Shown here: positions 15,535 through 53,434 of the stretch, piece after piece
Layout: each line of letters begins with the position of its first letter
Numbering within the stretch: the first letter of the stretch is position 1
DNA from: Cliona cf. orientalis
Lineage: Eukaryota; Porifera; Demospongiae; Clionaida; Clionaidae
Length of the DNA stretch: 64,000 nt
Direction of reading: 5' to 3'
NCBI GenBank assembly: GCA_963930775.1
Contig: OZ005704.1
Location: 1,612,001 to 1,676,000, forward strand
Notes under the pieces: generated by a model
The model's input: only the letters and a program-made list of their open reading frames with translations
Told to the model about the DNA's origin: nothing
Database searches by the model: none
Program-made: the position numbers and the translations under genes

Positions 15535-18500
15535 TCATGCAGAATCATTAGATTTTTCCTTTTCCTCCATAGCTTCTTTTTCCAGTTCTGGCTCGGGTTG
15601 CTGGTCTAATTCACTTTTTTCCTCTTCCTCTCCAGTATTTTTATCATCATCTGCTTCTTCCTTTGATTCAGGCTGGGGGGTTGGCTTGTTTGGTTCACCC
15701 TCAGCACTCTCTTCATCCACTGCCTTTTCCTCCATAGTTTCCTTCTCTGGTTCAGGCTGGGGGCTTTGCTTTTTCGGTTCGTCACTCTCCTTCTTTTCAT
15801 CGTCCTCAAATACATCATCACAGACATCATCAAATGGCATACTTACACACACAGAGGCCCGCTCTTTCCCCACTCCAAGCTTTTCCTGAGTGAATGCAGA
15901 ATCACACGAGCTTGTATATTATAGCTATTGTACTTGAGTAGAAATTAATGGTCTTACCTTCCATGGGATAGATTCAGAAGTACTAGGATGAGTACTAGTT
16001 GGAGACTTACACGACGTTTCGACTGTTCCAGTCGTAGCTGTGTAGTTGGGATTTGGTTTTTTGTCAAACTTTTGTTTCTGTGGAGTAGTCATCTGAGGCT
16101 TGATGGTGAAGAAGGCCTTCCACTCCTCTCTGACGTCAGAGCTCATCACACAGAGAAATAAAAAGATGAACAAACCCTGGAAGGAGTTAAAGATTGTGAA
16201 TAAGACCTGAAAAGCTTCACGAAGTCCCGTGACGGAAAAGGTGAGAGCAGCAAAGAGCCATGTAAGTCCAAAGAGGGACATCACTCCACCGATGCTGAAG
16301 ATCACACGAATGGCATCATTCCTGCTGACGGACTGATTCTTCAGACTGGCTGTTTTCTTGACATGCTTGATCAGCACCACAATGACACACACGAATATGA
16401 CAACATTGAAGAGAAAGATGGCTAGGAGCGGGGCAAGAAAAGCTCCCCAGAAGGCTCCAGGATGGGACAGGAAACAGCTGTGCATAATTATTACGTAATA
16501 TTTTTATATTATTATATCTATAATCAGGAGCATATGAGCCGCCCGAAGGGCGGGGAAGGAGCGTCCGACTACCGTAGGGTTGGCTGTACTATGTGTTAGG
16601 CGAAGTCCTTAAGGCTACACTTCCTTATTTGGAACGTGCAGCTGGTGCGGTGCATAGCAGATTACTTTTGTACAACCCACACTGTACTAGCTAATTGACT
16701 TAGTCTGTAGTGTGGTTGTAGACTGTGTACTACGGGCGGTACTATCACTATGGAGCTTAACCAATGGAAATACCCTGCAGCTGGCCACTCCATATAAGGT
16801 CAAGCACTGCTAATGAACTTCGCCTAACACATAGGAAACGCAGTCGGACGCTCCTTCGCCGCCCTTCGGGCGGCTCATATGCTCCTGCTATAATGTAAGT
16901 TTTTTTGTTAACGTACAAAATAAGCTTTCCAGATTTATCTCTTTTTGTCATGATGTCATCCTCAACCTCATTTCCATTTGCCAGTTCAGAAATTAGTGTA
17001 ATTATGACAGGAACGGCTGGTGCAGCTATTAAATGAATAAAATGCAATATTAAATTGCATGTTTAGCATGCTGCATGATGCAGTATGCTAGAGGCTTACA
17101 CCAACAAATAATGGAGAGGATTATGATGTATTTGGTAGTCGTTCGAACAAAAACTATGACCAGTTTCTGGAACATGAGCAGTGCCTCAGCTCCCATCCAC
17201 AGCACTGACGTCAGAGCGAAGTAGTGCACAAGGAGAGATACAAACACACAGCCGCCGTACAGAGCTGGTACACTTTCAGCACTTAGTACCACAAAGGCGA
17301 GAGAGATAATCAACATGAGAAGCAGAGCTAGGCAAAGCTGGATGTGTAATTTGGTGATATCCTTCTGGCGAACATTTCTAGCAAAAAAATTAGTGGTACA
17401 CATTATCATTAGGCTCATCCCTAAATAGTCCTAGGCCAATTTCAATATTGCACACTGAATAGATCTGGGGATGGTGCTAATTTTTAATTTATGATTATTG
17501 TGGATGGAGATAGCTTAAACTAACTTGAAAATGATGAGGCTGATGAGAGTGAGAACAAGTGATGCAATGGAGATAGGCATTCCAATGTAAGAGATGTACG
17601 TCAGTGCCCTTTCGACCTTGGACTCCTCACAGTTATCCTCTCTCAGGCAGATATCCTACAGGTAGATGCACACAAGTCATATAGGCTTATAATAATATAC
17701 ACACTCATTCGCACAAGCATACAACATGCACACACACTCACATATTATACTTAAACACACACACACATACAGTAGTACTTAACTCCAATTAAACGAATAC
17801 GACTATAAAGAGCAGATGATAAAATTAATTATTAATTATCATACCACTAGTGTGCAGAAGTTGGTGAGATGGCTACAGGTACATGTGGCAAATTCCCGAT
17901 TGTGGCTAATCTTGGTTGTACAGCCTCGAGGAGTCCAATCTTGAAGCTCAAAGTCCCACGCTACACATCTCTCACTTCCTGGGATTACAAAGTCCTGAAT
18001 ACAGTACACACAATACTTGTATTGAATGTCATCAGTACAGTGTTACATAAGCATATTATTATGCATGATTGAATAACACGATATGAAATTGTACTCACGG
18101 AATCATTAATATTCAGTCTCAGAGTCACAGTCACAGGTTCACTAAGGTCATCAAGGTGTATGGAGGTGTTGCCAACAGTGGCTGATAGAATGTGGGTGCC
18201 AACCTCTGTCACTATCGTGTCATTGTAGTCTGTTCCGGCAACAGGGAATAAGTTGGTGCTTTCGTAGACACCAAAGACAGCTCCAACAGTTGGTTGGTTA
18301 ATATGTTCAAATAGTGAGCCAGGGAGAATGATGGCTGCGTTTTGCTGAGAGGAAGGTTCACCTGGCCTCACCTGATTTCCGGAACCAAGCATTGTCTCAT
18401 TGATATCAGCTCCTAGGATGTATCGTTGTTGAGTATGATAACGAATATTGTGCTTTGATAATATACATATAAACAATCTTGCATTTTATGCCTCCTATAC

Positions 18501-21500
18501 TGTCTTAATAACAATAATACCTATGGAGAAGCTCCTTCCTTCTTTTGTCAGGTTCGTCACATCCCTCTGTCAACAGCAATATCACATCAATGTTATTCCA
18601 AAAATACAGTATAGCTACCGTTCATACTCACCCTTTCAGTAAGAATGGTCAGCGAAGGCACAGTGAACTTTTGCACCTCATTCAGAGGAGCTCGTTGAGC
18701 TGATGTGGATAATATGACTTCAAAGGACTGAACCACTCTGTAAAATGAATAATTATTATACATGTTATTATATCTAGGAAGGCTAACTTTGAACTGCTTT
18801 CAACGACAACATTTTCAGGATTCCATTGAAGAAGAGAACTGACTACATTGGCCACGTTATTAACAACCTATGGTAGAACATGTACATTTATAAAGCTGAG
18901 AGTGAGAGAGAGAGAGAGAGGGAGTAGACGTAGCTTTCATACATACTGTAGTTGTAATGGCAGTATTAGGTTCGGTGAGAAAAATTTTCAGCTTGTTGAA
19001 ATAGTCAGCAACAGTGCTCAAAAGTTCATCATTTTGTTCAGCTTCGTTGTTCTCTAATTCCATCATAGCATCAGACAATGACTGCACAGCACCTTCAACA
19101 TTCTCTGCCGTTAGCTGTATGTCAGTAAGGTACAATACTCACTTCAAATCAGTGATTATTCGTTAAAATCTCACATTCGAAAAAGTATTGTTGAGCTCCT
19201 CTATCACTGTGATGTATGTGGACATAATAATATGCAGATTAATCATTATTCTATATAGTTAAATCATAGTCATAATATTATTTTTCATTGTTACTAATAA
19301 TTATTGCTGTTGCTGAAACGTATACTTTTGTCGAGAAGATTCTCGACCCTTATTGTTGTTATCTTATTGTAAGTTTGCGGTTTGCGTTGTGTGTGCATTG
19401 CAACCAAATAACCTTCGGTGGGGGGCATTGTGGTGGGGGACACTGTGGTGGGGGACCCTGTGGTGGGGGACACTGTGGTGGGGGACACTGTGGTGGGGGA
19501 CATTGTGGTTGAGAATGCTTCCTGGAAAGATTATATATTATTATTATCTCATTTATTATATTGATACACTGTATTTACCACGAGAATAGCAAAATTGGTG
19601 AGATGATCGCATTCGCATTGGATAATTTTATCGGTGTCGGCAGTAATATTACATCCATGAGGAGTCCAACTTTGGGTACTAAAATTCCATGAGACACATC
19701 TTTTTGAAGAAGGATCTATGTACTGACGAATTATGACTCACTATAATTATTATCATCTATTAAAATAAATAACGTAGAGCTTACTTTTCCCTCAAGCTTC
19801 TGAGGCTTAAATGAAATTGTAACTGGTGACTCAAGGTTCTGAATGGTTAAATTGTGGCCGACAGTAGCTGCTAGAACTTGGGAGTAAATCTCAGTTGTCC
19901 TTGAATCGGAACTTGTCCCTCCAGTGGGAAATAGTGTGGCTGTTTCATAGAGACCAAAGAAGATTCCAACACTACTGCCAGTGAGTTGATCACCAAGCTG
20001 CTGAAAGAGAGACGCAGGTAGCTCAATCCCTGTACCCTCTCGAAGGGTATTTATTCTTTCAGTCACCAACTTTCCATCAACTGCATTAAAGAAGTAACCC
20101 ATGCAATTAACAGCTATATTGGAAAAATGGGTGATAATTGTATCAACTAACTGGCAGAAAATTTTCTCCCATTTGTTTTTAAATCATCTAAGTTCACCTT
20201 CCAAAGGAGAGAGACATGCATGAATTAACCATGGGTAAACTTTCATGCAGAACCTCACTCTTTCAGCCACAATATTCAAGGACTGAGACTCCAAGGTGGA
20301 ATTGTGGATTCGAGTGGTGTTTTCAGGAATATCCTGAGCATACTGAGAAACAAAGTCCTCAAATGACTTCATAATCCTGAGTGAAATACAATGTTGTTAA
20401 TGAGCTCTTGGACTGTCTCCAAGATAGCTAGCTATAGTTCTAAAATTGTGTTTGCTAGTTCAATAATAGCTCTCGAATCTCGATAGTACTTTTTTTTTCT
20501 TGCAACAGTAGTTATCACTCATGTGGCCTTCCTTACCTTGATCCAATATCTGCCTCAACTGCTGTTGCCGTCCACTGAAGTAAAGAGTCCACTATCTTCA
20601 CAACATCAGATACAAACTGTGAAATGCCATGATATCATCTTTAATCATCCTATGATTTAGTTGGGAATGGAAAACTTACATTCGAATCACTACTCTGATC
20701 TGATTGACTGATCTCCTCAGTGATAATCGATAAAATGCTGGCAATTTTGTTCAGATTGTCCTCATTTTGATCCACTTCACTCTCAAGTGATTGTTCAATA
20801 ATCTTAGATAGGTTTGCCAAGTACTCACCTACCGTCTCATTAGTAAGCTACACATGAACAATAATCATAACCCCAATCCAGATCAGAATCTGGATTAGTC
20901 TAATCCAGTTCCTGTGTAAACACCTTTATAATTAATCCAGGCTAAAATCCATACCTTGAAGTGGATTACATTGTGGTCTCTGAATAGTATTATAAATAAA
21001 TAATAGCTACTGTGGTATCCTGGGCAAGCGCCCACTCCTGGGTGGGCACCCATGCACCCCATGCCAATGTAACAGCAAGTGTATGCAATTTATATCCTAG
21101 GCAAGTGTTCATGTGGACCAAAAATTAATTTAATCGTGAGTTATATTTAAGTGGGAAACTGCTGTGCTTTCGTAATCTGGATTGGTGTGAATAAATGGGA
21201 CTGCATGACTATCGTTATACTATAATGTATGCATCTGTGCTGTCATTTTACTTTTGTAGAATTAAGGATATCCAGCTGATCACACAGCACTCCACATCCA
21301 TTTCGATCGAAATCCTCCCATTTTCCTTGAGAATTACACAATCTGCTCACAGAGTATTTTATGTTGTTGGGGCACTGGTGGTAAATTCTGGTATTTCTAC
21401 TGACTTCTTGCCAAGTGTACGTTTTGCAACCTACAGTGATCTCTTCTCCACAGCAGGTGCCTATGTATATGAAAGTATTATTGTTATGGGATCAAGAGGA

Positions 21501-22888
21501 TTCTGAGAAAAGCTAGATCGTAACATTCTTTCAGCTGTCTTGTTCATATGCACATGAGCAGAATTTTCATTATAGCTACTGATTTGAATTTAATTTATGA
21601 CTATGGATTTTTTAGATTCCAAAAAATTACTCACTAGCTAATATCAATTTTCCACAGCATTACTTCTTAATTCAATAATATGCAGAGGAGGGCAATTCTT
21701 GGAAGAATATATGTATTTAACATAATAAGTCATAGCAACCATAAAGCTCAGTCACGCATTAAATTTCTATCCGATAATTATTATTACATAATCATGGCTA
21801 GATTACTAGAAGATTCAAGGATTCTGAAGCCTCAGTAATTGTTACACAAAATTGGCAAAATGAGGATATTATTGCTACATTTTAGACATCTCTGCTAACC
21901 AATTACCCAATGACTTGCTAGCATTAAATTTTACCTTCTTTTGCGAGAGAGACAGCAACGTTTACGATGTCACCACGCTGATGGTTAATACCAGCAATAC
22001 ACTCATACTGACCGACATCACTGCACTGTATACCCTTGCCATCTTTAACATTGACTTGCAACAGAGCTGATGCAGTATACATATACTCCGGCTTGACAGT
22101 GCCACCACTTCCAGCACCAGATGCATTACCACTGCTATCTCCGCTGAATGCATCAATGGTACCACTTTCATGATCACCAGATGTATCTTGTTCACTGCTA
22201 GAGCCATTGCTAGCAGCACTACCACTGCCAGAACCACTCATGCCACGGGATGCTTGAGCATCAACAGATCCAGATGCCCTGGCTTTGTCGAATAATATCG
22301 TGCCATTGCCAGCAATCAGTGAAGACATTCTCCCTATGTAAATTTTGTGCAGTCGTATTATATAATATTGATTGTTTTGTAAAAGAGCAAAGATGTCTTT
22401 AACTTACCATCGGTACGCCGCCAAAGCACAAAGACATTAGGATCATGACTCATAGCAGTACATGTCACAGTGAAATTTTCATCACGGGGTACGGAATACT
22501 CAATTAGATCTCTGTCTTCACTTAGTTGCATAGGACTCAGGGACAAAAACACAGTAGAGTCTGATGAAGGGAAATTTATCATGAAAATTATGCTTTTATT
22601 GCAGCTGCTATTAAAATTAATGCCAAATATACACTGAAATGATGGCAGAGTACTTCAAAACTATGCACCTCATCAATAATATTATTATATTATTATAATT
22701 ATGGACTGGACTACTAGCTGAACAGATGATGACACCCCCTATAATATTATTTCCTGGCCAAAAAAACAAACAAAACACTCGCCATTCTACTGTATTAAAA
22801 GCTTACCTTCTCCTTGCTCGCTGCAGGATATCTGGACCAGTAAACTCATCAACAGTAAAACTAATCCACTGAAAATGTGAAGAGCCAT
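15535..22888 (-). CDS. Adhesion GPCR with tandem GAIN-GPS modules (Ig-HormR-GAIN-GPS-GAIN-GPS-7TM)
   Basis: Twenty-three exons on the minus strand join in phase to about 1362 aa: 22807-22888, 22408-22560, 21935-22333, 21252-21460, 20680-20847, 20537-20616, 20259-20376, 20152-20197, 19785-20080, 19579-19722, 19413-19521, 19175-19206, 18947-19114, 18788-18867, 18632-18737, 18521-18566, 18099-18412, 17845-17994, 17525-17655, 17100-17377, 16917-17025, 15958-16477, 15535-15885. Domains: signal peptide (MALHIFSGLVLLLMSLLV); Ig with a Gly/Ser-rich insert (about 28-211); HormR (about 211-281, CPNN..C...GKW..F..NGC); GAIN1 (281-517); GPS1 (CVSW..CDHLTNFAILV); Ser/Thr/Pro linker (565-600); GAIN2 (612-850); GPS2 (CVAW..CSHLTNFCTLV); seven membrane segments (about 910-1165); acidic Glu/Pro-rich tail. 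Both GPS have the HL-T cleavage triplet. The family couples cleaved ectodomain to G proteins at the plasma membrane. The double GPS is unusual. Confidence 0.85.
16525..16887. mobile_element. 363-bp inverted-repeat element with 7-bp target duplication, in GPCR intron
   Basis: Ends are CAGGAGCATATGAGCCGCCC and its reverse complement, and the arms extend through GGAGCGTCCGACT and GTGTTAGGCGAAGT. CTATAAT flanks both sides (16518-16524 and 16888-16894), a clean 7-bp target-site duplication. CCGCCCGAAGGGCGG inside each arm is itself a palindrome. It lies between the 7TM exons 16917-17025 and 15958-16477. Confidence 0.85.
19416..19508 (-). repeat. Coding 15-bp minisatellite encoding SPTTV-type repeats
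   Basis: About six copies of GTGGTGGGGGACACT (plus-strand view) lie inside the exon after GPS1. In the reading frame fixed by the neighbouring exons, each unit encodes S-P-T-T-V/G/M. The inverted duplicate at 2688-2766 lacks the array and is exactly 30 nt (two units) shorter while keeping phase. It probably forms an O-glycosylated mucin-like linker between the two GAIN modules. Confidence 0.8.
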
Positions 22889-23621: not shown

Positions 23622-26600
23622 TTAGTGTGATGTACTCTGATAAAATACTTTGTAATAGACCACTTTGGACTCGGCTGGAAAGTGAGAATTATCAAATTTT
23701 AGCGTGTACAGTCCCTGATGCTCGTAGCGATGATTGCCGAGAATCAAATCAACCGAACAGTTTCTCTTAGTCACGGGCAGCAGCTCTTGCATGGGCCACG
23801 AGTGACCAGCAACCTCACTCTTTCGTTGAAACGTCAGGCCAAACCCGATATCCCCTCTTTCCGTCACAAACTCAAAAAAGACGGCAGATGCTTGGGTGCT
23901 TGTCGGTACTTGTACGTCGACGGATTCTCCAGGATTCAAGACGAGTTGGTTCTCAGAATGGCCAGTGGGGGAAGCTGCTCGAACTTGACTGATAAACTGT
24001 TTCGCCGCCTTTGGGTTACACCAGAGCGCCGCTGGGGCAACCACATTGCTGTCCAGTTCGTTGTAGTGTTCATGATGTACGGTCATGGTGTGGTGGAGGG
24101 CTAGGGGTGGGGATCTAGAGGCGGGGTTATTATTGTGGCTTGGCATAGAGTGATGGGTGGAGTTGTGGCCTTCTTTTGCACTCTCGCTGATGATGGGGGA
24201 TCTTGTTGAACTCTATACAAAACATCAATAGGTTCAGTGAACTTCTATAGGTGAGGAGTCTACTATTAGCCAATAGTAGTTAACTTTAATTCATACAATT
24301 TGCATAATATGGTGAAAAGTTCTAGTACAACGGCAGAAAAAGGTTGAGTCTCAGAACCTAAGGGAACAATCCTAGTGTGCATCCATAATAAAAAGAAGCT
24401 CGGAGTGTATACACTGGAATTCCTTTACTACGTATATAGAACACCAGATAAAATTCAGAAAATTTTCTTCTATGAATCCTCGGGAAAACTGTACGTACGA
24501 CATCAATCAGCGCAGCATAGGTAGTTACTAGAGCCACCCAAGAAAGGAACTATATAACTTTATAAGGGGACTTAAGCCAGGATACCTCCAAATTATCGAT
24601 AATTAATTTATAAATAATTGTCATTGATTAGTGAGTATGGGATGACTTAATATTACCTCTGTAGTTTCTCTCTTGTCTTCTAGGCCATTCCTGACATTAC
24701 ACTCGTCTGCGCCTCTCTCCTGCACTTTGACCTCTCTGTATTATAGTAGTAAAAAAAATGGAAACAGGAGGAATTGGCTATTATATTCTAATTACGTACA
24801 GCGTCGTGAGGTCGGGCAATCTTAAGAATCCCAAAACAATTATATGTACTTTCGACATAAATTAACTGTGTTGTACCTTCCCTCACAGCGCAGTACAAAT
24901 CATTTACTGCATATACATTATATTGCCAAAAATTACATGCATCGAGGGTGCACTAACTCGCTCACAAGGAGTGATCTTGCCTTGTAGATGCTCGTATAGT
25001 AACTTATTACTAAAAGTTTAGAAGGGGGAGTTCATTAACTATATACAGTGAATCGCTTGCATAAGCATGTACATGTACATAATATTCTAGCTCTATAGCT
25101 ATGTGACCCTCCACGAGGAAACCAAGCATAATGCGCTGGATATCAATCTAGGATACAGGCCAAAATAGTTGCCCAAGGTGATAATTATCGTTTTTCACAT
25201 TTTGGTATAGATCGATAGAGGAATCATTCCTCTATACAAAAATCTGCTTCGTAGCTTCTAGAACGCTATATTTACCGAGTTATGGCTCGAAGAAGTCAGC
25301 CATGTAGCTAACATTGATACGGAGCCGTTGCCATAGTTGCAGCTAGGCAAGCACAGCAGCTGCACAGAAAAAACTCTCCAGTCACTTCTTTCTCCGATTT
25401 TGCATACTAACGATCTATAGACACGCTTGTCTTTTCGTTCTTTTCCATCGAAACGCCGGCTGCTGCTCTCTTTCCAACGTTTTAGCAGCCATCTGGCTCT
25501 TTGACTTAGTGGGCGGGGCCACATATTTACCATAAACGGCAAATATACGGACTTCCGTGTGCAACGTACGTAGCAATGTTCAATGCAATTTTTGCAATAC
25601 TTGAGTACGGGTGATCCGGGTATATTTTTGCTCATATCTCCATGACTACACAGGCTAGAGACTTCAAATTTGCTGGAGCAATAGTTCAAAGGTTGTAGTT
25701 GGTAATGGTGGCCTTAACTAAAAAAAGGTTTTCCGCGCATTATGCTTGGTTTACTCGTGGAGGGTCACATATGTCTTTTCAGTATAGTATTACCCCTTTC
25801 CCACCTCTAAACCCATGCCTGAAATATTTCATTATTACTAAGGTGATGTTGGGGGGGGGGGGGAGGGGGGGGAGGGCAAACCATCATGCCTTCCCAATAT
25901 GCCCTTTCTTTGTGTTTACCACCATTGTGGCTAACGATGGCCTAGAAGTAGCCTGAAGCTAATTTGAACCAGGTCCCCCCGGGACTGATGGCTTTACACC
26001 CCCTCCGAAGGATGTGCGGTAAAACACCTCCATATTTTCTGGGAGTAGACTACAGGGCAATTTCTACAAGCAGCAGCCATAACCCACAACCTGGCCAAGA
26101 TGTCTTTTCGGTTTGTGGACCTTAAAGGAAGTGAGACTCGAACCTATGACTCTAGGTCAAGAGCCCAAGTCTTTAACACTTGGCCACCAGTAAGAGAATT
26201 CTTTTAAGAGCTTACATATTATTTGTACATGGAGGAGCTCAAGGACACATCTTGATATAAACAAACCAAGATTCTCTGGGGAAAACTGAACTGTTCGGTG
26301 AACTTATCGACATTTCGATTAGATGCTCTAGTCATCCTCAGGGTAAAAGTCAAAATGTTGGCAGGTTTGCTGAATAGTTAAGTCATCCGCAGAGAATCAT
26401 ATCTATTTCTATGCAGATAGTAACAGTTACTGAGAACGATGTCACTCCAACACACCTTGATTTCTCCTTTTCTTCCTTACTCTGCTTGGCCCTCCATCGC
26501 TCCAAAACGGTCTCCTTCATTTGTGAATCTACCGTCTCTAGAAGCTTGATGATCTCCAGCTGGGAGTCCAGTTTAGTCATATCTCCGAGTGCTATCCATG

Positions 26601-43500: not shown

Positions 43501-46500
43501 TCTCTCTCCCTCCCTCCCTCTCCCTCCCTCTCCCCCTCTCTCCCTTTCTCTCTCCTTTCTCCAGCCGGTATTCCCCTGACATCAACCGATACAGTGTCTA
43601 TTCGTCAGTTTGAGCTGGCCCAAATTGTGTGTGATGGATCTGAGGCTAGTGTCTCGGGATGTGCTATCAGCAAGATTCCAACTGTTTCCTCGGCTCAGGC
43701 ACAAGTGAGATGCTTTCAGCAAATAGGTACGTATATTATATATGCAGACGTACCGTATACTTTCTAATATAGGTGCCGCTAAAAATAATTGCAGATCACG
43801 CAGGCACCCCCAATTAGAACCGAAAAATTCATGAGCAGGTCAAAGGGTGCCTATAATTATTAGAACATATGCGGTAATCAGGTACACACGGTTACTTTCT
43901 CCTTATATACATGTATAAATGAGGGATCGATCGAGGCCGGGCTAGATGATCAAAGTTTGACAAAATTTATTTCCTCTGGCCGTCTTTCATATTGATTCCT
44001 ATGATTATGCATGTCACCCAAGTACATGAATATTATGCTGGAGTATGTCAAAGGGATGCGTTACGTACTCATGATATGAGTGTTCAGGTTAGCTCTGACT
44101 ACCATGCAGCTGCAGAGTTTCTTGTGGCTTACATGTAGCTTGCACCTCATTTTCATCTGCATGTGTTAATGATCCCCAGTGTGCCAGACAATTCACACAT
44201 CTAAACAGCTATTGGATATTATGTGAGAATTAATATCAGGACAGATCTTGCCAGTATTGCAAATGGAATAATTATTACACTTGAGTGTGCGGAGTAGGAC
44301 AGCTGTAAAGAGGCTAACTACAGACCTGTACACACATTTGTAATGATCAGTGCATGGATGGTCTATTACTTCCAGCTTCCCTGACTTGATAATGAGCTAT
44401 AGAATTACATTTGTACTCCTCACACAAATAAACAATATCCTTATTGAAATTATTCTAGTCACGTCTTTCCACTTTAGAGAGCAAATTAAGCTATACAAAA
44501 ACTTCAAGGAAATTGCCAAGAATCGATTTTTATCGCCATACATGTATATATAGAAGCCTTATATCTTGTACTCCTATAGGGATACCACTGGAATTTCATA
44601 CAGACTTAATTAATTATCGCACTTTTTACATTTATTTATTATTCCAGAGCCCCCTTGTCAAGATGGAGCTATTCGCCTTTCTCCCGATGGTCCCAGCCCT
44701 AACGAAGGTCGCGTGGAGATATGCTATGATAACGTATGGGGTGCTGTCCATGATCAGCAGTGGAATGAGTATGATGCTGCCGTTGCCTGTGCTCAACTTG
44801 GATTCGACAGAAATGGTCAGTACTGTAACGGTGCATGATGCTAATTATAGGCATTACCATATTTGGTATATATGTGGTACCTAAAAATAGTTGCATGATA
44901 CGAGTAGCTGCTTACATCACGTCGAACTTATGTGAGATATATATTATTTTCACAGGAGCTATACCAATCGTTGGAGTGACCTATGGCTCTACTGACACTC
45001 TCTCCATAGCGTACAGCAATCCATTCTGCGTTGGCACCGAGGCCTCACTGACAGACTGTCCAGTGATTTCCAGCATTGTAGAGGGACCTGGAGGACCCGT
45101 TTCGGGATCAATTGTCACGACTGCCGTAGGAGAAACTGGTATTTATCAGAACAGTGCAAGTGTGCCGGGAAGCCTGGTTGGTGTCAGATGCGAAAGTAAG
45201 TAGCTTCTTCAATACCTGATGAGAGAGATCTAGACTTACATTGTATCCTTTACATAATATTATTATGTATATTATTTGTAGGGGATATTCCCTATGTAAC
45301 AAAGATCAGTATTAAATGTACATCACAGCGTCATTTAGGCTTACATGTCCCCAGGTCTCAGCTTTGCATGGGAGGGAAAGTCCAATTGCAAGGACAAGGC
45401 TAAGTATACATGTACATGAGCATCTACATGTATGCTTGTTGTTACATGTACATGCATGTTATGATTATCATTTATGCACACAGACCGTCCCAGATCTTGT
45501 ACTTATCTCGACACAAGACTGACCTTCAGAAGTACTGATTCGACGGGAATCCTGGAAGTGTGCGATGAACTAGGCCAGTGGAGCAGAGTTTGTGCCGATG
45601 GCAGCATATTAATCAGTGATGCATTTGTCGCTTGCAACCAGCTTGGATTTGACCCCAGTTTCCCTCCTAATATTGACATTGTCCCTCTAACTACTAACCC
45701 AGCTCTGAGCGACGGTGGTCAACCGGTGTCGTTCCGATTTGTTGAAAATAGTCTGGGGTGTCTAGGCACTGAGCAGAATCTGACGTCATGTCCCGGTGTT
45801 AGCATGCCCACTGAGCCTCCACCAATTCCACTTAGACGAAGGAGACAAGCTGGTGAACCACTACCACTGACGTGTGGCTCTCTTGTTAGGATTGGCTGCT
45901 CTGGTAAAAAATACTACCTAAAGTATATGCATGCATGCATGCATGCATAGATTTGTTTCAAGGAGGGTGACTAGATATACAGTGATGTACTGTATCATGG
46001 AATTAGAAGGACAGTGGACATTACAGGGAGGATAGAGTGGGTGGGGGAGGGGGGGGGATTGTTTCAGGGGAGACACTAAATTCTCTTTTAGATTTTTGTC
46101 CTACCCCCTACCCCCAGTGTGTTTTGGTATAATATACATGTACGGTACACTTACAGCATATCAGTGTGATCTTCTACTACAGTGGTATCTCGATCATAAT
46201 TATTATTATTATTATTATTATACCGTATGATACTCTGCAGCTCCTCCTATGGTGACATTCGATCCTCCGAGTATTGGTGGAAGCTATGAAGTTGAGCTGG
46301 GAAGGCAGTTTAGCCTCAGCTGTATGTTCAATCGAAACATCTATCCCACTCCTATTCTGTTCGAAGGTTCCAGGGCGTCTGCTGGTATGTGCAATTCCAT
46401 TTCTTATCCTGTTTGTGGAGAGGCTAACAAAAAATTTTCAGCAGATGAAAATATTACATTCAGTTACCATCAACACAGACATGAATGATTATTAAGGCTG

Positions 46501-49500
46501 ACCATGGCCCCATCCATATTAGCCTAATCCTCAACTGTTGTATGCATGTGGTTACATTATATCTTCTTTCATTCTCAGAGAGAGTCAGACGCGGTGCAGC
46601 TCCGGTAGGGAGTAATTTTCTCAATATCATTTCCAGCGGTCCTATAGGTCTCAGTGATGCTGATGTCTACTATTGTCAAGGCTTGTATGGTGCTCAGTCC
46701 AATTTCAGAGAGGGTGCTCAGGTCACTGTAAGAGGTATAAACCCCCTCTTTTTTCAGCTACCTTGGTTTCATGACCAATAATATTAATATACTGCTACAA
46801 ATTATACAAAAACTGAGTATAATATTATAATTTGTAGGACCTGGTGGTATGAATGAGACTGCCTACATTCGTTTCTCCATTGCAACTGCCATTCGTCTCG
46901 ATGTCTCGTCATCTGTTGAACTTGCAAATTTCCTAGGAGCTCTGGTATAATAATAACATGTACACTAATAACCAGGAATAGATTATAGCATGATAAATTG
47001 TTTATTGTTATAAGGAAGTGAACCAATTATGAAACATGTACCAGTTATGAAACAAAGAGCTAATTAGATCTAGTTTCACCTAAAAGTCAGTTTACAACTC
47101 ACGGTTTCATAACTGGAACTGTTTCATAACTGGTTCATTTACCTTAACTATTCTACAATTCATTTATAGGTGTTAGTGTTTATTCCTGAAGAGCTCCCAG
47201 GACTGCAAGTCATTGATTACTGTGTGCCAGTCAACAGGTTAGTGCTCGTTTATTTTGTGTGTGTGCATGTACTAGTTAAAAACTCGCCAATTTAATTTAA
47301 TGCATGTGTGCCTATGGCAGTAATTATAGCATTCAAATCGCAAAAAAATTAAACTTTGACAATACCGATGGAGAGCTATTTTACCAATTTTAATGCTCGC
47401 CAAATTTACCCGCTATAATAATAATATAATGGTATGTGTTCTTGCTGGCATGTTATTGTATAGCTATAAAGTTAATTATAGTCTATTTCCAGCCCACTAG
47501 GTGGTGTACATATGAATTAAAGACGTTCCACTATACCACAATAATAATATGCTCAGTCATGTAGATTGCTACATTAAGGAGAAGTTTATGATTATATCAT
47601 CTACTTATCTATAGTACTGAGATGGACATTGGGAGGGGTCTAGAGCGTATTGAGTGCAGAGTGACCCAGTATTCTAACAGCGGTGAGTCAGTGATGCCAG
47701 TGGAGCAGGTCCTGGAGCGTGTCAGTGTGGATCTGCCTCGTGCCTTCAAAGTCTTCAAAAATCCAGCTGACGTTTCAGGTAATACAGCACTCAATACCTA
47801 TACATTTTGTTGACCATCCACCTAGCTTTATAATAATACATGTACATGTATGGGTAAATTGCCGGCTACCAGAGTGGTGTAAATTAGTCCAACGATGAGA
47901 GGAGTCATGGGCCAAACTGTTGCATGTATTCGTCATTGTCTCAAGGAGTCTGGGATAAGCATCAAATTCACTGTCCCTGCCAAACTTCTTATCGGAAGTG
48001 TTCTACTACTCCGGTCAATGTTGTTATAATGTTAACTTGTCCCCGCAGTGACTGGATTCTGTGATGCTGAGGAGACCGTGTCTGACAGTGGTACCACATT
48101 TGTTTGGCCTGAAACGCTTGGTGGGGACACTGCCTTCTTCATCTGTCCACTGAGCCCTTCATTCAACGCGACACGACCGTGCAATTTCGGAGGGGAATGG
48201 CAGCTGTTTGACGAGATGGCTTGCGGTGTTGTTCTTGGAATTCTCAACACCCTTAACAACTCCTTCTCTAATGTAAGACTATTATCAAGAGTACTATGAC
48301 ATTGTATAATATTTATGAGCCTTTGGGATAGTTATTCAGGGAATTAGTATCAACCATTTAAACTAGTGTAACTACATGTAATATACATGTATAGTGTAGT
48401 TGATCCAGTGAAGCTGTAGTGAGCTATATATAATAATATTATACAGGATCAGGCAGATCATTGAAGAGATGTTTAACCACAGCATCACTCTTAGATTAAT
48501 TTCATTCTAGAGACTTTCTGATCGAGGGTAAATCTGTGGGCAATTAGCATCTTCACGTACATGTACATGTATATATCTACTGTAGCATTTACTGGGAGTG
48601 TCTTGAATTTTCCTAACGATAATTTTTACCACTCCATGCAGCTGACTGTTGAGACATATGTTGCATCAGTGGCTATGCTGTCCCAAGTCATTGAAGATAC
48701 AGAGAACGCCGAGGTGGAGCAGAATAGTGGGGTGCTGGGATCTGTCGCTAACTATTTCGGAGAGTTGGCTGTATTTGTCAATACCTCCAATATCACAATC
48801 AATGTTACCGTGAGTCTCTATAGCAATAATAGGACTATATTAAATTAAAAAAAAAGCACCTATGAATCTGAATTTTATTTGCGATGTACTGCATGTAGGT
48901 CATTGATGATGTTGTTGGTGTGGTGAGCTCTCTACTCCAGTGGCAAGCATCAAATGTCCAAGTGGCAAGCAGTTCAAGGTACAAGCATGTCCATTATTAC
49001 GTATGGAGCCATGCATGAGAGTGTGCAGGCCAGATTCAATTTGGCAAGTTGATTTTGTTGGTTTGGCTTCCAATGCCATACATGCACTTATTCATGAAGC
49101 TATGCTGCCAAGCAAATTAAAACCTGTATAATATAAACCTATACTAATTCAGCATTGACCATCTGTGTTTGTTTGTGTAGTGTTGTTGAATCTTTTGAAG
49201 TGGTTGTTTCCATCTATGCTCAACAACTTTCCCTGAACGAGAACCAAACCTTTGTCATGCCTTCTATTACACTTGTTGCAGAATTGGTAAGTATACACTG
49301 TAAGTATTCACACATGTTTTGAATTATTGGCAGTACATGTCTGCCTTAGCAACCATCAAATTCAAATCTGCATAATAATGGTAATCCCATACCAAACTGC
49401 AAATTAAGAATAAATCTGTGAATAATCCGGGTGATTTTGGCTCCAAATGCCACATTTTAATTCCAACCAATGTTTCCAGAAAAATGATGTGTGTATTGTG

Positions 49501-52500
49501 TAGATTACTTTCATTACTTTTACTGTTTTGCAGAGGAGCGTGGAGACTCTCAGCCAAACTGGAAGAAGCTTTGCCATAGGTAAAAAAATATGTAGCACAA
49601 TAATAATTTTTGCGTGATAGGTTAGGTTAATCTATCGAACCTAATGCTGTCTTGATACCATACGTACCTCAATACGTGCAATTTTTATAATTAAAGGGGC
49701 TGACTCCACACACACTCACTTGTATGTACATGTAGGTGGCAATGAACTTGAGCTTGCCGATGGCGGCCAAGTGATGGCAGGTCAGCTTACCCCTCAGCAG
49801 ACTGCAGCGATCAACCTTCCAGCCTCCCTCTTTGCAATCATCAACGATCGACCAAACGTTGGTGTATTCTTTGCCCTCTACGACACTTCAGTTCTGTTCC
49901 CCGTTAATAGCGGGAGAGATAGAGAGGCGATTCGACGCGCTGAAGTGGTCACGGACATCCTAGCGGCTACTGTTGGTCCAGGAATAGTCTTTGAAAATCT
50001 GGAGGAAGATGTTACTATTGTGCTGCGAGTGCAACCACCTGTAAACATGGTGAGAAAAAAAATAATAATCTGATTGGCATGTCTTTCATTATCATAAGCA
50101 GGGTTTCATCCAGTGGGAGGGACAGGGGGGAAGCTTCCCCTCCAAATTCCCTAGCTTTCCCCCCCCCCCTAAAAATTTGATTTTAATTACATAATATCAC
50201 AGTAAATCACCAAATAAAATCACTAGCATTTGTTTTTGATCAAAAATTATCTGAAATAATAATATAGAAGAATTAAAGAAATTCTCCTAAAATACGTCCC
50301 AAGGAACTTGGCGTGCTGAATACGCCCACTCATTTATCGCGCTTCCACCCCAAATTTTTGTCGCTGGATGAAACCCTGATAAGAGTATGTGTATTAATAA
50401 TTATTATCCCCTACGCAAAAGTTCAATGCTGTAGCTACTGCAATCTAAAACTTGTCACTATTAAAATTTAATTTTTGTAGTAATGGACTGATGTATAAGC
50501 AATAATAATAATAATAATATTATGCAGAGCATGGCACCTGGCACAGAGCGGTGCGTATCTTGGGACTTCATCACTCAAGATTGGACGCCAAACGGATGCA
50601 CTACCATCGTCGGGGAAGATGGCATAGTCACTTGCAGCTGTAACCATCTCACCAACTTTGCTGTCCTTGTGGTAAGCCATCCTACATGTATAACATATTA
50701 TTGCCAAATTCCTTAATGCAAGGCAATTAACAGTTACTAATCTGCTTCACATCTCGTATTACATCTGTATGGTGCTACAAAGTACACATACCGTATAGCC
50801 GGAAATATTGGCGGGAATTAAATTTGGCGGTTGAGCCCCAAATCGCTATAATTACAAGAATATTGGCGGATTTAAATTTTGGCGGTACGGTACAGAATCG
50901 CCATACATATTATATGCGAGTAGGAAATTTTGGCGGATTTTAGTTTGGCGGTTGTAATAATATAGACTGCCAATTAAATCGCCAAATTTAATTCCCCGCC
51001 AAATTTTCCGGCTATACGGTATCCAAAGTAATACCACACCTAGCATGATAATATTATTATAATGCTATTATTATTTGTGTGAATCTTAATTTAAGGCAAG
51101 GTATGTACCTATGGGTACCTACCCTGCTACCTTTAAGGTGTATAGGTGCACACTGTCATTTCAATGGTCTCTTGTAAATTTGGTTTGACTGAAAGATGAT
51201 CTTTATGAATTTTCATGTAAACATGGCCATAGTTGTCATTAATAATAAGTCTTATATGCACCTTCCACTAAATTTTCACATTTTTTCTTAATTTGTTTTG
51301 CAGGATGTGTGCTTGAGGCAGGAAAACTGTGAACCTTCCAATACTGGATTTGAAACTGCTCTAACCTTCATCTCATACATTGGCATGTCCATCTCTCTTG
51401 TCTCTCTGGTGATCACCATCATCACACTGCTGCTATTCAAGTGAGTATTGTAATTTGAGAATTGATTATCGCTAGGATGTCCATAAGCAATCACATGGTT
51501 TATTCACATGCACTATGCCAAACATCCATAGCTGATACTCAAATACCGTAAGTTGTTAATAAGCGCACATGCTATTAAGCTGATATTCAAATACCGTGAA
51601 ATCTTGTTAATAAGTGTACAATGTTAAGTGCATATTTCCTTCCTGTTTTTAAGTAATGTCTAATAAGCTTCCGATTATGCCTCCATGAACTACCTGAGGT
51701 TTTCTCAACAATCGTTGGTTTCGTAACTTGCTGGCCTTGTGCTTGAGCACTCGAATGGGCAAAGTCCAAAGTTCACTCCCACATAAGCTGCACCCAATTT
51801 CAGGGGTTAAAATTCGATTCTTACGAATTGCAAATTTACAATAATATTACTGCATTATAGGAAACTTCGCCAGAAGGATACATCAAAATACCACCTTCAG
51901 CTCTCCCTAGCCATCCTATTCATGCTGATAGTCTCATTTGTGCTTGTTGCACTGAGTGCCGAGAGTGTGGCCTCTCTCTATGGAGGTTGTGTGACAGTGT
52001 CTATCCTCGTGCACTATTTCACACTGGTGGCTGTGATGTGGATGGCAGCTGAGGCACTGCTCATGTTCCAGAAACTTGTCATTGTTTTCGTTCGAATCAC
52101 AACAAAGTTCATAGTTGGCATTTCTATTCTTTGCTGGAGTAAGTGTAATGTTCACATGCACCAATTCATTAGTATGAGTGCGTTTTTTTTCTTCTAAATT
52201 GCAGCTGCACCAATTATTCTGGTACTCATTCCCCTTATCGTGGACCTGGCAACTGGTCATGCTGTCGCTGATGACATCGTTGTTCGGAGAGGAGTTGAAA
52301 TTTCCTTGTAAGTACAATCCCTTCACCCTTTTATCTATTACATGCATGTATAATAATATTGTGTAATCCTTGATATACGACATTGTGTATAATATTATGT
52401 CTAGGATGCATTAGATTATGATTGAGTATCGACCTGTAGCCTGTAGGTCTCTCTGAGGTTTATAAATCAAATAAGATGATCGTTCTCTTTATTTTTGCAG

Positions 52501-53434
52501 CTGTTTCCTGTCTCATCCTGGGGCCTTCTGGGGAGCCTTCCTAGCCCCCATTATTGCAGTACTTATATTTAACACTGTCATCTTCATCTGGGTGATTGTG
52601 GTGCTGGTTCGTCACACTAGGGGCACAGCTGCTCGAATGAAGGAGTCAGTCAGCACAAAAACCATCATACGTTTGATGATCAGCATCAGTGGAGTGATGT
52701 TCCTCTTTGGAATCACCTGGCTCTTTGCTATCCTCACCTTCTCTGTTACTGGATTGAGAGAGACTTTCCAAATCCTCTTTGTAATCTTCAACTCTTTCCA
52801 AGGCTTCTTTATCTTTCTGTTCTTCTGCGTCTTGAACAAGGAAGCGCTCGAGTCTTGGAGAGAGTTCCTTTCCTGTGGAAGATACAGGTCGAAGATGCTC
52901 CATCCTTCACAAGCTGGCAAGTACAGCTCTAGCACTGGGACCAAGAAACCTAAGCAGACCAAAACATACAGCACGGGCTTCGGATCATCGTCTGCTGGGG
53001 GAAAGAATGCCATCGCCTCGGAAGTATCAAAATCTGACTACGACTCAACCACTTTTTTGAAACAGAAGGATTTTGAGTCGGAAGCTGACATGCAGGAAAC
53101 TACTCCCTTGAAGAAGGTGGACTTGGGCACTCCTGAGCCAGCTATTGTGTTGGTGGATATGACTAACCGGAACGAGAATCAGAATGGAAACACGGAATCC
53201 GTCGAGGCCAGTAACGAAGGAAAAGGAGAGGAGGAAGAAGAAGCAGCTGCTGCAGCCAGTCTGGGACAGAAGAAGAAGAAGAAATCAAAAGGCTTGTCGC
53301 TGAGGGCTCGAATCAAGCGCTACTCGACAAAGAAAATTTCCAAGCACCATGTGGAGGAGGTTGAGGTAGACTTCCACTCTGACGACAGCAGCAGCGGGAG
53401 CAGCGGAGAAGAGGAGACCACCGACCGAGTATAG
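34517..53434 (+). CDS. Large adhesion GPCR: Ig, Calx-beta, SRCR x5, LDLa x2, Ig, HormR, GAIN, GPS, 7TM
   Basis: Thirty-three in-phase exons give about 2163 aa. Signal peptide 34517-34598 ([17 protein letters not shown]); Pro-rich linker 35155-35235; Ig 36584-36850; Calx-beta 37539-37691 and start of 38002-38379; SRCR1 to 38519-38719; SRCR2 38861-39028, 39374-39553; Calx-beta 39760-39918, 40278-40517; LDLa 40869-40991, 41907-42032; SRCR3 42411-42581, 43565-43726; SRCR4 44648-44815, 44956-45195; SRCR5 45484-45903; Ig 46241-46384, 46579-46734; unassigned module 46838-46944, 47170-47237, 47615-47778; HormR 48049-48272; GAIN 48642-48809, 48899-48978, 49181-49286, 49534-49579, 49736-50049; GPS 50528-50671 ([11 protein letters not shown]); TM1 51304-51440; TM2-4 51861-52138; 52205-52307; TM5-7 and tail 52501-53434. 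The tail is Glu- then Lys-rich. Predicted plasma-membrane receptor with a cleaved ectodomain. SRCR and LDLa repeats suggest protein or particle ligands; no ligand is shown by the sequence. Confidence 0.88.
35240..35412 (+). repeat. Dispersed repeat shared with 3125-3290
   Basis: Second copy of the segment containing TTTCCTTTGATGTGGG and GCTTTGATGTGGCC. It begins within a few bases of the exon 2 donor of the SRCR GPCR. Confidence 0.6.
35429..35777. mobile_element. 349-bp inverted-repeat element with 9-bp target duplication
   Basis: Perfect 17-bp terminal inverted repeats CAGAGGAGGTTGGACAT / ATGTCCAACCTCCTCTG. GTGTGTGCA flanks both sides exactly (35420-35428 and 35778-35786). A 9-bp duplication is typical of Mutator-like elements; the assignment is inference. 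It lies in intron 2 of the SRCR GPCR. No coding frame. Confidence 0.85.
36022..36511. mobile_element. About 490-bp inverted-repeat element, copy 2 (copy 1 at 14838-15343)
   Basis: Same orientation and nearly the same sequence as copy 1, with small deletions (for example the GGCTAAAGC stretch of copy 1 near 15038 is missing). Terminal repeats TGTGAATG and CATTCACA are retained. It is located in intron 2 of the SRCR GPCR. Confidence 0.85.
38750..38835 (+). repeat. (GA)n purine tract in intron before SRCR2
   Basis: GAGAGAGAGAG and GGGAGAGG runs occupy the short intron just before the acceptor at 38861. A second similar tract lies at 39655-39725 before the Calx-beta exon at 39760. The paralogous introns in the gene at 53878 lack them. 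Confidence 0.75.
42270..42410 (+). repeat. (CT)n microsatellite serving as extended polypyrimidine tract before exon 42411-42581
   Basis: About 140 nt of TCTCTC/CCCC repeats run directly into the AG acceptor of the SRCR3 exon. A second tract of about 105 nt (43458-43562) precedes the next acceptor at 43565. Open frames reading through these tracts are artefacts. Confidence 0.85.
43751..43876. mobile_element. 126-bp inverted-repeat element (TACCGTA type) in SRCR GPCR intron
   Basis: Left TACCGTATACTTTCTAATA and right (reverse complement) TACCGCATATGTTCTAATA, each followed by an AGGTGCC / AGGCACC step. It is a short MITE related in its ends to 54184-54384. Confidence 0.65.
47011..47146. mobile_element. 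136-bp inverted-repeat element in SRCR GPCR intron
   Basis: Left TAAGGAAGTGAACCAATTAT and right (reverse complement) TAAGGTAAATGAACCAGTTA. Both arms repeat CCAGTTATGAAAC internally. The arms cover most of the element, so it can fold almost completely. Confidence 0.75.
50099..50378. mobile_element. 280-bp hAT-like inverted-repeat element in SRCR GPCR intron
   Basis: Left CAGGGTTTCATCCAG and right CTGGATGAAACCCTG are exact reverse complements. CAGGG termini are typical of hAT elements. The flanks share ATAAG (5 bp), short of the 8 bp expected for hAT, so the class is tentative. Confidence 0.7.
50788..51022. mobile_element. 235-bp inverted-repeat element (ATACCGTATAGCCGG ends)
   Basis: Left ATACCGTATAGCCGGAAA and right TTTCCGGCTATACGGTAT are reverse complements. 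TTGGCGG motifs recur through both arms (more than six times), giving internal sub-repeats. It lies in the intron between the GPS exon and TM1 exon. Confidence 0.8.

Follow-up and report, generated by a model that had tools for sequence, protein, structure and literature searches.

We analysed a stretch of 64,000 nucleotides from the sponge Cliona cf. orientalis (contig OZ005704.1; C16:1612001-1676000 of the 217-Mb genome that was searched), hereafter the window, which carries on its minus strand a gene for a receptor of the adhesion G protein-coupled receptor (GPCR) type. A single GAIN domain per receptor is usual in adhesion GPCRs, though not strictly defining. The initial annotation claimed that this receptor carries two complete GAIN-GPS modules in series before a single seven-transmembrane (7TM) region. 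The gene model, built by hand as a chain of 23 exons, extends from 22888 to 15535 and encodes 1362 amino acids. All 22 introns have GT-AG borders with consistent phases, and a single open frame runs from the ATG at 22888 to the stop at 15535; the exon chain is indeed in phase throughout, as had been claimed. A spliced protein-to-DNA aligner (own script), which was used for the locus models described below, returned the exons of the hand model over residues 259-1180, the check being circular because the window protein itself was the query.

The predicted protein consists, in this order, of a leader, an Ig-like region, a first HormR domain (HormR1), a first GAIN-GPS module (GAIN1-GPS1), a Thr/Pro linker, a second module (GAIN2-GPS2), a single 7TM region and an acidic tail. 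Exon 1 (22807-22888) holds the start codon and a hydrophobic segment that by eye resembles a signal peptide. Exons 2 and 3 (22560-22408 and 22333-21935) encode the Ig-like region with a Ser/Gly-rich insert, recognised by eye and giving no Pfam match to an Ig domain. HormR1 is encoded by exon 4 (21252-21460); its HRM match stayed below the Pfam cut-off (17.8 against 26.2 bits; E 0.0044), and the assignment rests on alignment with other HormR sequences. The GAIN1 exons, placed by the hand model and by profiles, lie at 20847-20680, 20616-20537, 20376-20259, 20197-20152 and 20080-19785, and are followed by the GPS1 exon at 19579-19722, in which the motif CECDHLT (19597-19617) continues as NFAILV, giving the tethered-agonist-like TNFAILV. 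The Thr/Pro-rich, mucin-like linker exon (19413-19521) is followed by a small exon encoding VIEELNNTFSN (19175-19206; phase 1 in, 0 out), which was found in the hand model and by the aligner. The GAIN2 exons follow at 19114-18947, 18867-18788, 18737-18632, 18566-18521 and 18412-18099, assigned in the same way as those of GAIN1, and the GPS2 exon lies at 17845-17994, with CTCSHLT (17863-17883) continuing as NFCTLV (TNFCTLV). The first GAIN1 exon and the end of GPS2 thus coincide exactly with the limits originally given for the two modules (20847 and 17845), and both GPS carry the HL-T triplet within a CxCxHLT motif. The 7TM exons are located at 17655-17525, 17377-17100, 17025-16917 and 16477-15958, and the last exon (15535-15885) encodes the acidic C-terminal tail and the stop. 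One intron of 189 bp separates the GPS2 exon (Pfam E 1.3e-8) from the exon of the first transmembrane segment (TM1), indicating that the second module sits in the usual place. Pfam analysis of the spliced protein identified two stretches of GPS (E 2e-20) and one of 7tm_2 (PF00002; E 2.5e-33), with no other significant match to a membrane domain.

As the Pfam GPS profile spans only the last 45 positions of a module, the nature of the remaining part was examined separately. The Pfam GAIN model matched GAIN1 below the cut-off (22.7 against 26.5 bits) and gave no match on GAIN2 of the window protein. Single-sequence searches of solved structures aligned residues 51-283 of GAIN1 with ADGRG2 and residues 74-287 of GAIN2 with ADGRG6. 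A GAIN1 profile of five sequences (window receptor and the genomic loci D, J, F and H introduced below) matched ADGRG6 over 37-282 (E 2.2e-15), and a GAIN2 profile, made from the same five receptors plus the single GAIN of locus K, matched ADGRG6 over 22-282 (E 4.9e-9) and ADGRL3 (E 3.4e-9). The two profiles aligned with each other over 278 columns with 32% identity and a probability of 100. In the window receptor GAIN1 and GAIN2 share a six-exon layout, with lengths of 168/80/118/46/296/144 and 168/80/106/46/314/150 nucleotides, respectively, and identical phases (0/2/0/1/0/0), which argues that the whole GAIN module was duplicated together with its introns. The predicted structure of a single-GAIN homologue from Ephydatia (P0001; moderate confidence, mean pLDDT 70.5 and pTM 0.47) shows a helical part followed by a beta-rich part that ends in a strand at the tethered agonist (Stachel). 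Foldseek hits of this model in the PDB include the HormR-GAIN of BAI3 (4dlo; TM-score by target 0.65, root-mean-square deviation 8.9) as well as full adhesion GPCRs.

A PF01825 search of the genome gave 113 matches. Between 1.676 and 1.80 Mb of C16, eight pairs of GPS spaced 1.46-1.77 kb and one pair spaced 4.2 kb were found, and the spliced aligner resolved eleven C16 loci into nine with two GAIN-GPS and one 7TM (A-H and J) and two of single form (I and K). This array of nine doubles begins at the right edge of the window. A tblastn scan of the C16 array detected no 7TM between paired GPS (C1a, C16u and C12a, named next, were outside the scan). Among nine further loci modelled, three were double, namely C1a (C1, 11.106 Mb), C16u (C16, 1.56 Mb) and C12a (C12, 4.27 Mb), and each of the other six had one GPS within the 10-14 kb examined. 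Including the window receptor, there are at least 13 doubles on three contigs (C1, C12 and C16). The number is a lower bound, four wider-spaced GPS pairs being left outside the count (C12 4402693/4410706, C12 4497192/4508693, C17 1138122/1147414 and C18 7596581/7611493). In each of the models D, J and C12a, Pfam matched GPS in two stretches and 7tm_2 in one. The HL-T triplet is kept in GPS1 of 12 of the 13 doubles and in GPS2 of all 13, and GAIN1 of the window receptor is 40-42% identical to four other GAIN1 sequences. No stop interrupts the models of A, B, D and E, of C16u and C12a, of the window receptor and of F (the last in its first pass), nor those of C, H and J once two passes had been combined or the linker exon added. 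An isolated C-terminal 7TM fragment, probably a receptor remnant, also lies within the array (C16:1766034-1766321, plus strand).

An inverted copy within the window had been cited earlier in support of the double architecture. GPS1 (2481-2624) and a linker exon (2688-2766) that starts with EACSREADC are present there, following HormR and GAIN1 (884-2766 in all, plus strand), but the copy is partial and rearranged: tblastn at E 1e-3 found neither GAIN2 nor 7TM downstream on the same strand, and the matching 7TM tail lies on the opposite strand outside the window (C16:1609451-1610332, minus strand). It looks like a split second copy of the window receptor, a gene broken by inversion. Being only partial, it was dropped as support, and the real confirmation of the doubles comes from the array of paralogues.

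We then asked whether the upstream module is in use. The ratio of nonsynonymous to synonymous substitution rates (dN/dS) was determined pairwise by the Nei-Gojobori method (own script) for five close pairs, D-E, A-D, A-E, C-D and A-C; for the short GPS parts only few changes were counted, between 0 and 13 per type. For D-E the values were 0.29 (GAIN1), 0.17 (GPS1), 0.16 (linker with a second HormR, HormR2), 0.36 (GAIN2), 0.04 (GPS2) and 0.20 (7TM), and for A-D 0.25, 0.17, 0.38, 0.38, 0.24 and 0.24 in the same order. Over the five pairs, GAIN1, GPS1 and the HormR2 linker gave 0.13-0.44 (GPS1 alone 0.15-0.26), GAIN2 0.14-0.47, 7TM 0.13-0.24 and HormR1 0.26-0.50; for four more distant pairs several dS values were saturated or undefined. 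Purifying selection thus acts in the array copies on GAIN1, on GPS1 and on the linker that encodes HormR2, and the constraint on these parts is of about the same strength as that on GAIN2. Between GPS1 and GAIN2, the introns on either side of the linker measure only 59-111 bp in eight of the array copies (A-G and J), and those of the window receptor measure 57, 206 and 60 bp. One receptor in which a single 7TM follows two GAIN-GPS modules is supported by the exon chain, by the 13 loci, by the short joining introns and by the purifying selection on both modules in array copies.

The linker itself may carry a trace of how the doubles arose. A single exon with phase 0 at both ends forms the linker of A, B, C, D, E and J; it encodes HormR2, the cysteines of which align with those of HormR1 in all three copies tested (A, D and J); in D the best Pfam HRM match is this second HormR (E 2.2e-7, above the cut-off). 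An apparent second HormR is also present in C16u and C12a (in C12a with HRM E 0.0032, below the cut-off). The linker is short in F, G, H and C1a, and the linker exon of the window receptor is largely a 15-bp tandem repeat (19417-19509; 6.2 copies) that reads TTVSP. At the start of the linker exon, 10 of the 13 doubles (A-H, J and C1a) and the partial window copy have the motif [DEN]xCx5C, the pattern that also follows GPS2 right before TM1 (for example, DICLRQDNC). The likeness is short, the two motifs within one receptor sharing 3-5 of 9 residues. As the linker starts with this pre-TM1 Cys motif, the finding suggests that the doubles came from in-frame fusion of adjacent HormR-GAIN-7TM genes in a tandem array. 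By the simplest reading, an in-frame deletion would have run from the beginning of one gene's TM1 exon to the HormR exon of its neighbour, so that the 7TM of the first gene was lost, and HormR2 would later have shrunk or been replaced in some lines. In the window receptor the Thr/Pro repeat would occupy the place of HormR2, and the Cys motif was probably lost to the repeat, because the partial copy retains EACSREADC.

In known adhesion GPCRs, according to the available parts of PMC13197933 and PMC12716839, the GAIN domain cuts itself at the GPS and the Stachel stays bound afterwards; the tethered agonist becomes accessible to the 7TM once the N-terminal fragment has been released. For isolated GAIN domains, Stachel dissociation is placed at about 95-160 pN in the available text of a 2026 review (PMC13197933). 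With moderate confidence we favour, for the window receptor and its relatives, a two-GAIN receptor with a single 7TM and two non-covalent joints in series, which originated by fusion within the array. The parts of this reading differ in strength. The window receptor is very likely one polypeptide, and cleavage of both GPS sites is fairly likely; that GAIN1 acts as a second separable joint is given slightly less than an even chance. GPS1 and GPS2 would both self-cleave during folding, and the mature receptor would comprise three chains, joined in series through two buried Stachel strands: the N-terminal fragment, a middle chain (the first Stachel, the linker or HormR2, and GAIN2), and the second Stachel with the 7TM. 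GAIN2, adjoining TM1, would be the activating joint, the Stachel of which can reach the 7TM. At the GAIN1 joint the outer adhesive part could be shed, or the load capped, and the agonist at the 7TM would not necessarily be exposed. As both joints in series bear the same load, the weaker should yield first: yielding of GAIN1 would shed the outer fragment and spare the 7TM, while yielding of GAIN2 would fire the receptor. An extended form, in which gene fusion gave a family of three-piece receptors whose two self-cleaving joints grade the response to pull, is put forward only tentatively and appears somewhat unlikely. One break would then shed the outer fragment without a signal and free a Stachel-like N-terminus on the middle fragment left behind, whereas the 7TM would be fired by the other break; a middle fragment that was shed could present its Stachel to other receptors.

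Several observations weigh against the favoured two-joint reading. The exon models of the paralogues are homology-guided, and in-frame stops are left in G (one) and in C1a (four, in forced pieces), so that each of these two may be a pseudogene or an incorrect model. In C16u the triplet of GPS1 is HL-G (C16:1561635-1561729, minus strand). The intron between GPS1 and the linker exon of H is about 2.8 kb, and C16u and C12a also have long introns, so the argument from short introns does not cover these three. The juxtamembrane motif is absent from the linker in 3 of the 13 doubles (the window receptor, C16u and C12a), and the mechanical role would be carried over by analogy with other adhesion GPCRs. 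The trees, from which the poorly modelled C18a was excluded, are likewise mixed. In the GAIN tree, GAIN1 falls into two groups, one of A-E and J and the other of the window receptor, F, G, H and C1a with the single-form I and C19a (support 92/83); C16u and C12a stand apart, single GAINs lie among GAIN2, and neither GAIN1 nor GAIN2 was found as one clade. The best GAIN tree requires 6 changes for GAIN1 and 6 for GAIN2, the well-supported branches forcing only 1 and 2, respectively. The 7TM tree is equally mixed, with 6 changes, at least 2 of them by well-supported branches. Both trees were inspected for a single origin of the doubles, and none emerged; one origin of GAIN1 still appears compatible with the well-supported branches of the GAIN tree. 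Because single GAINs lie among GAIN1 and GAIN2, one fusion, several fusions and losses are indistinguishable, and the mixture could stem from gene conversion, from repeated fusion or from loss of GAIN1. Apart from these points, the HL-G form of C16u may be a naturally occurring example of an upstream GAIN that cannot be cleaved.

Other explanations were weighed on the same data. Within one polypeptide, GPS1 could stay uncleaved or its cleavage be irrelevant, HormR1-GAIN1 being an adhesive or spacer add-on and GAIN2 alone working; we regard this as rather unlikely, though with an appreciable chance. It agrees with HL-G in C16u, with the uncleaved state of some GAIN domains noted in the available parts of PMC13197933, and with the position of GPS1, which is not next to the membrane and the Stachel of which could not reach its own 7TM without rearrangement. 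The triplet of GPS1 is nevertheless kept in all doubles except C16u, together with the surrounding cysteines and the Stachel pattern, and the GPS1 dN/dS in the close pairs points in the same direction, but neither is decisive, since a folded but uncleaved domain would also be conserved.

Much less probable is that two transcription units or alternative transcripts make a secreted HormR-GAIN1 ending after GPS1 and a single-GAIN receptor that begins ahead of GAIN2. Readthrough of the intron after GPS1 in the window would meet a stop after nine codons, the partial window copy contains the first half only, the intron after GPS1 in H is long, and in the window the small linker exon is preceded by an in-frame ATG (MINLHIIMSTYIT, then VIEELNN), by our judgement with no convincing signal peptide. 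Against these stand the short introns around the linker exon in eight copies, which leave little room for a terminator, a promoter and a signal peptide, as well as the frame kept through the linker exon and the purifying selection on HormR2-bearing linkers, the Thr/Pro linker of the window lying outside that test. Separate genes were rejected on these grounds, with the reservations just given. An artefact, whether a misassembly or two broken genes whose exons were joined by chance, is highly improbable: the region does contain near-identical tandem copies (A, B and C) and a rearranged fragment, but two modules with one 7TM recur at 13 places on three contigs in divergent sequence, and the phases match throughout the window gene. 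Misassembly was rejected by the 13 loci. A chance GPS motif was also rejected, as two Pfam GPS stretches occur in each of four models (window receptor, D, J and C12a).

Natural two-joint receptors, in many related forms with and without HormR2, bear on the interplay of mechanical force, the shedding of fragments and the tethered agonist in adhesion GPCRs, and would allow a direct test of which site controls shedding and which controls signalling. The fusion origin also suggests a route to multi-module receptors, by fusion within a tandem array, in a probably early-branching animal.

Additional features were observed around the window receptor. Upstream of it lies a long open frame (23622-24212, minus strand), which we take to be GOLD-domain-like in appearance. 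The intron between 7TM exons (16521-16890) contains by eye a short element with terminal inverted repeats of about GGAGCATATGAGCCGCCCGAAGGGCG, resembling a miniature inverted-repeat transposable element. Receptor K (48049-52852, plus strand) was modelled by the aligner as a single HormR-GAIN-GPS-7TM of ordinary architecture, with an uncertain start of the HormR exon. Upstream of K, an SRCR-like open stretch (44964-45159, plus strand) was noticed by eye, the aligner placement being forced; SRCR repeats in sponge adhesion GPCRs are reported for Amphimedon in the available text of PMC4302439.

The closest named sequences, among the matches listed, are single-GAIN adhesion GPCRs of Ephydatia muelleri and Amphimedon queenslandica with 31-45% identity (P0001-P0005, P0012 and P0014-P0017). 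P0001 and P0002 have by eye HormR-like, GAIN and 7TM parts, and the sponge homologues compared have one GPS each. GPS were counted with a hidden Markov model built from this family and eight of the hits, about 8,000 candidates being scored per protein search; no two-GPS homologue was found, all 139 of the 139 database proteins having one GPS (in one search, the best 120 of 269 matches). No report of tandem or double GAIN was found in the literature among the matches listed. The available parts of PMC12716839 (choanoflagellate GPCRs), PMC4302439 (Amphimedon GPCRs), PMC13197933, PMC11697300 and PMC5548486 contain no mention of two GAINs in one receptor, the phrase 'two GAIN' having no occurrence in the first 300,000 characters of PMC13197933 or in the available text of PMC12716839 and of PMC11697300, where 14,435 GAIN models are covered. 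The only paper found to pair 'two GPS' with 'GAIN domain' refers, in its available text, to two mutants. A tandem-GAIN family of adhesion GPCRs, many members of which have tandem HormR-GAIN, thus appears to be new.

Among known systems, polycystin-1 is an 11-transmembrane protein (available text of PMC9672506), and PKD1/polycystin-1-like proteins have this 11-transmembrane region after GAIN, whereas the window receptor has one 7tm_2 after GPS2. In secretin receptors (class B1) HormR directly precedes the 7TM without GAIN; in the window receptor GAIN2 lies between. The predicted protein belongs with the adhesion GPCRs (class B2), having 7tm_2, a GAIN-GPS before TM1, and HL-T followed by a hydrophobic Stachel (HLTNFAILV and HLTNFCTLV), but it differs in having two GAIN-GPS modules rather than the usual single GAIN. 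HormR is N-terminal of GAIN as in the latrophilins (ADGRL), ADGRG6 and ADGRG2, and there are profile matches to the structures of ADGRG6, ADGRG2 and ADGRL3. In contrast to these receptors, a second GAIN-GPS is placed upstream, away from the membrane, and a second HormR is present in six array copies.

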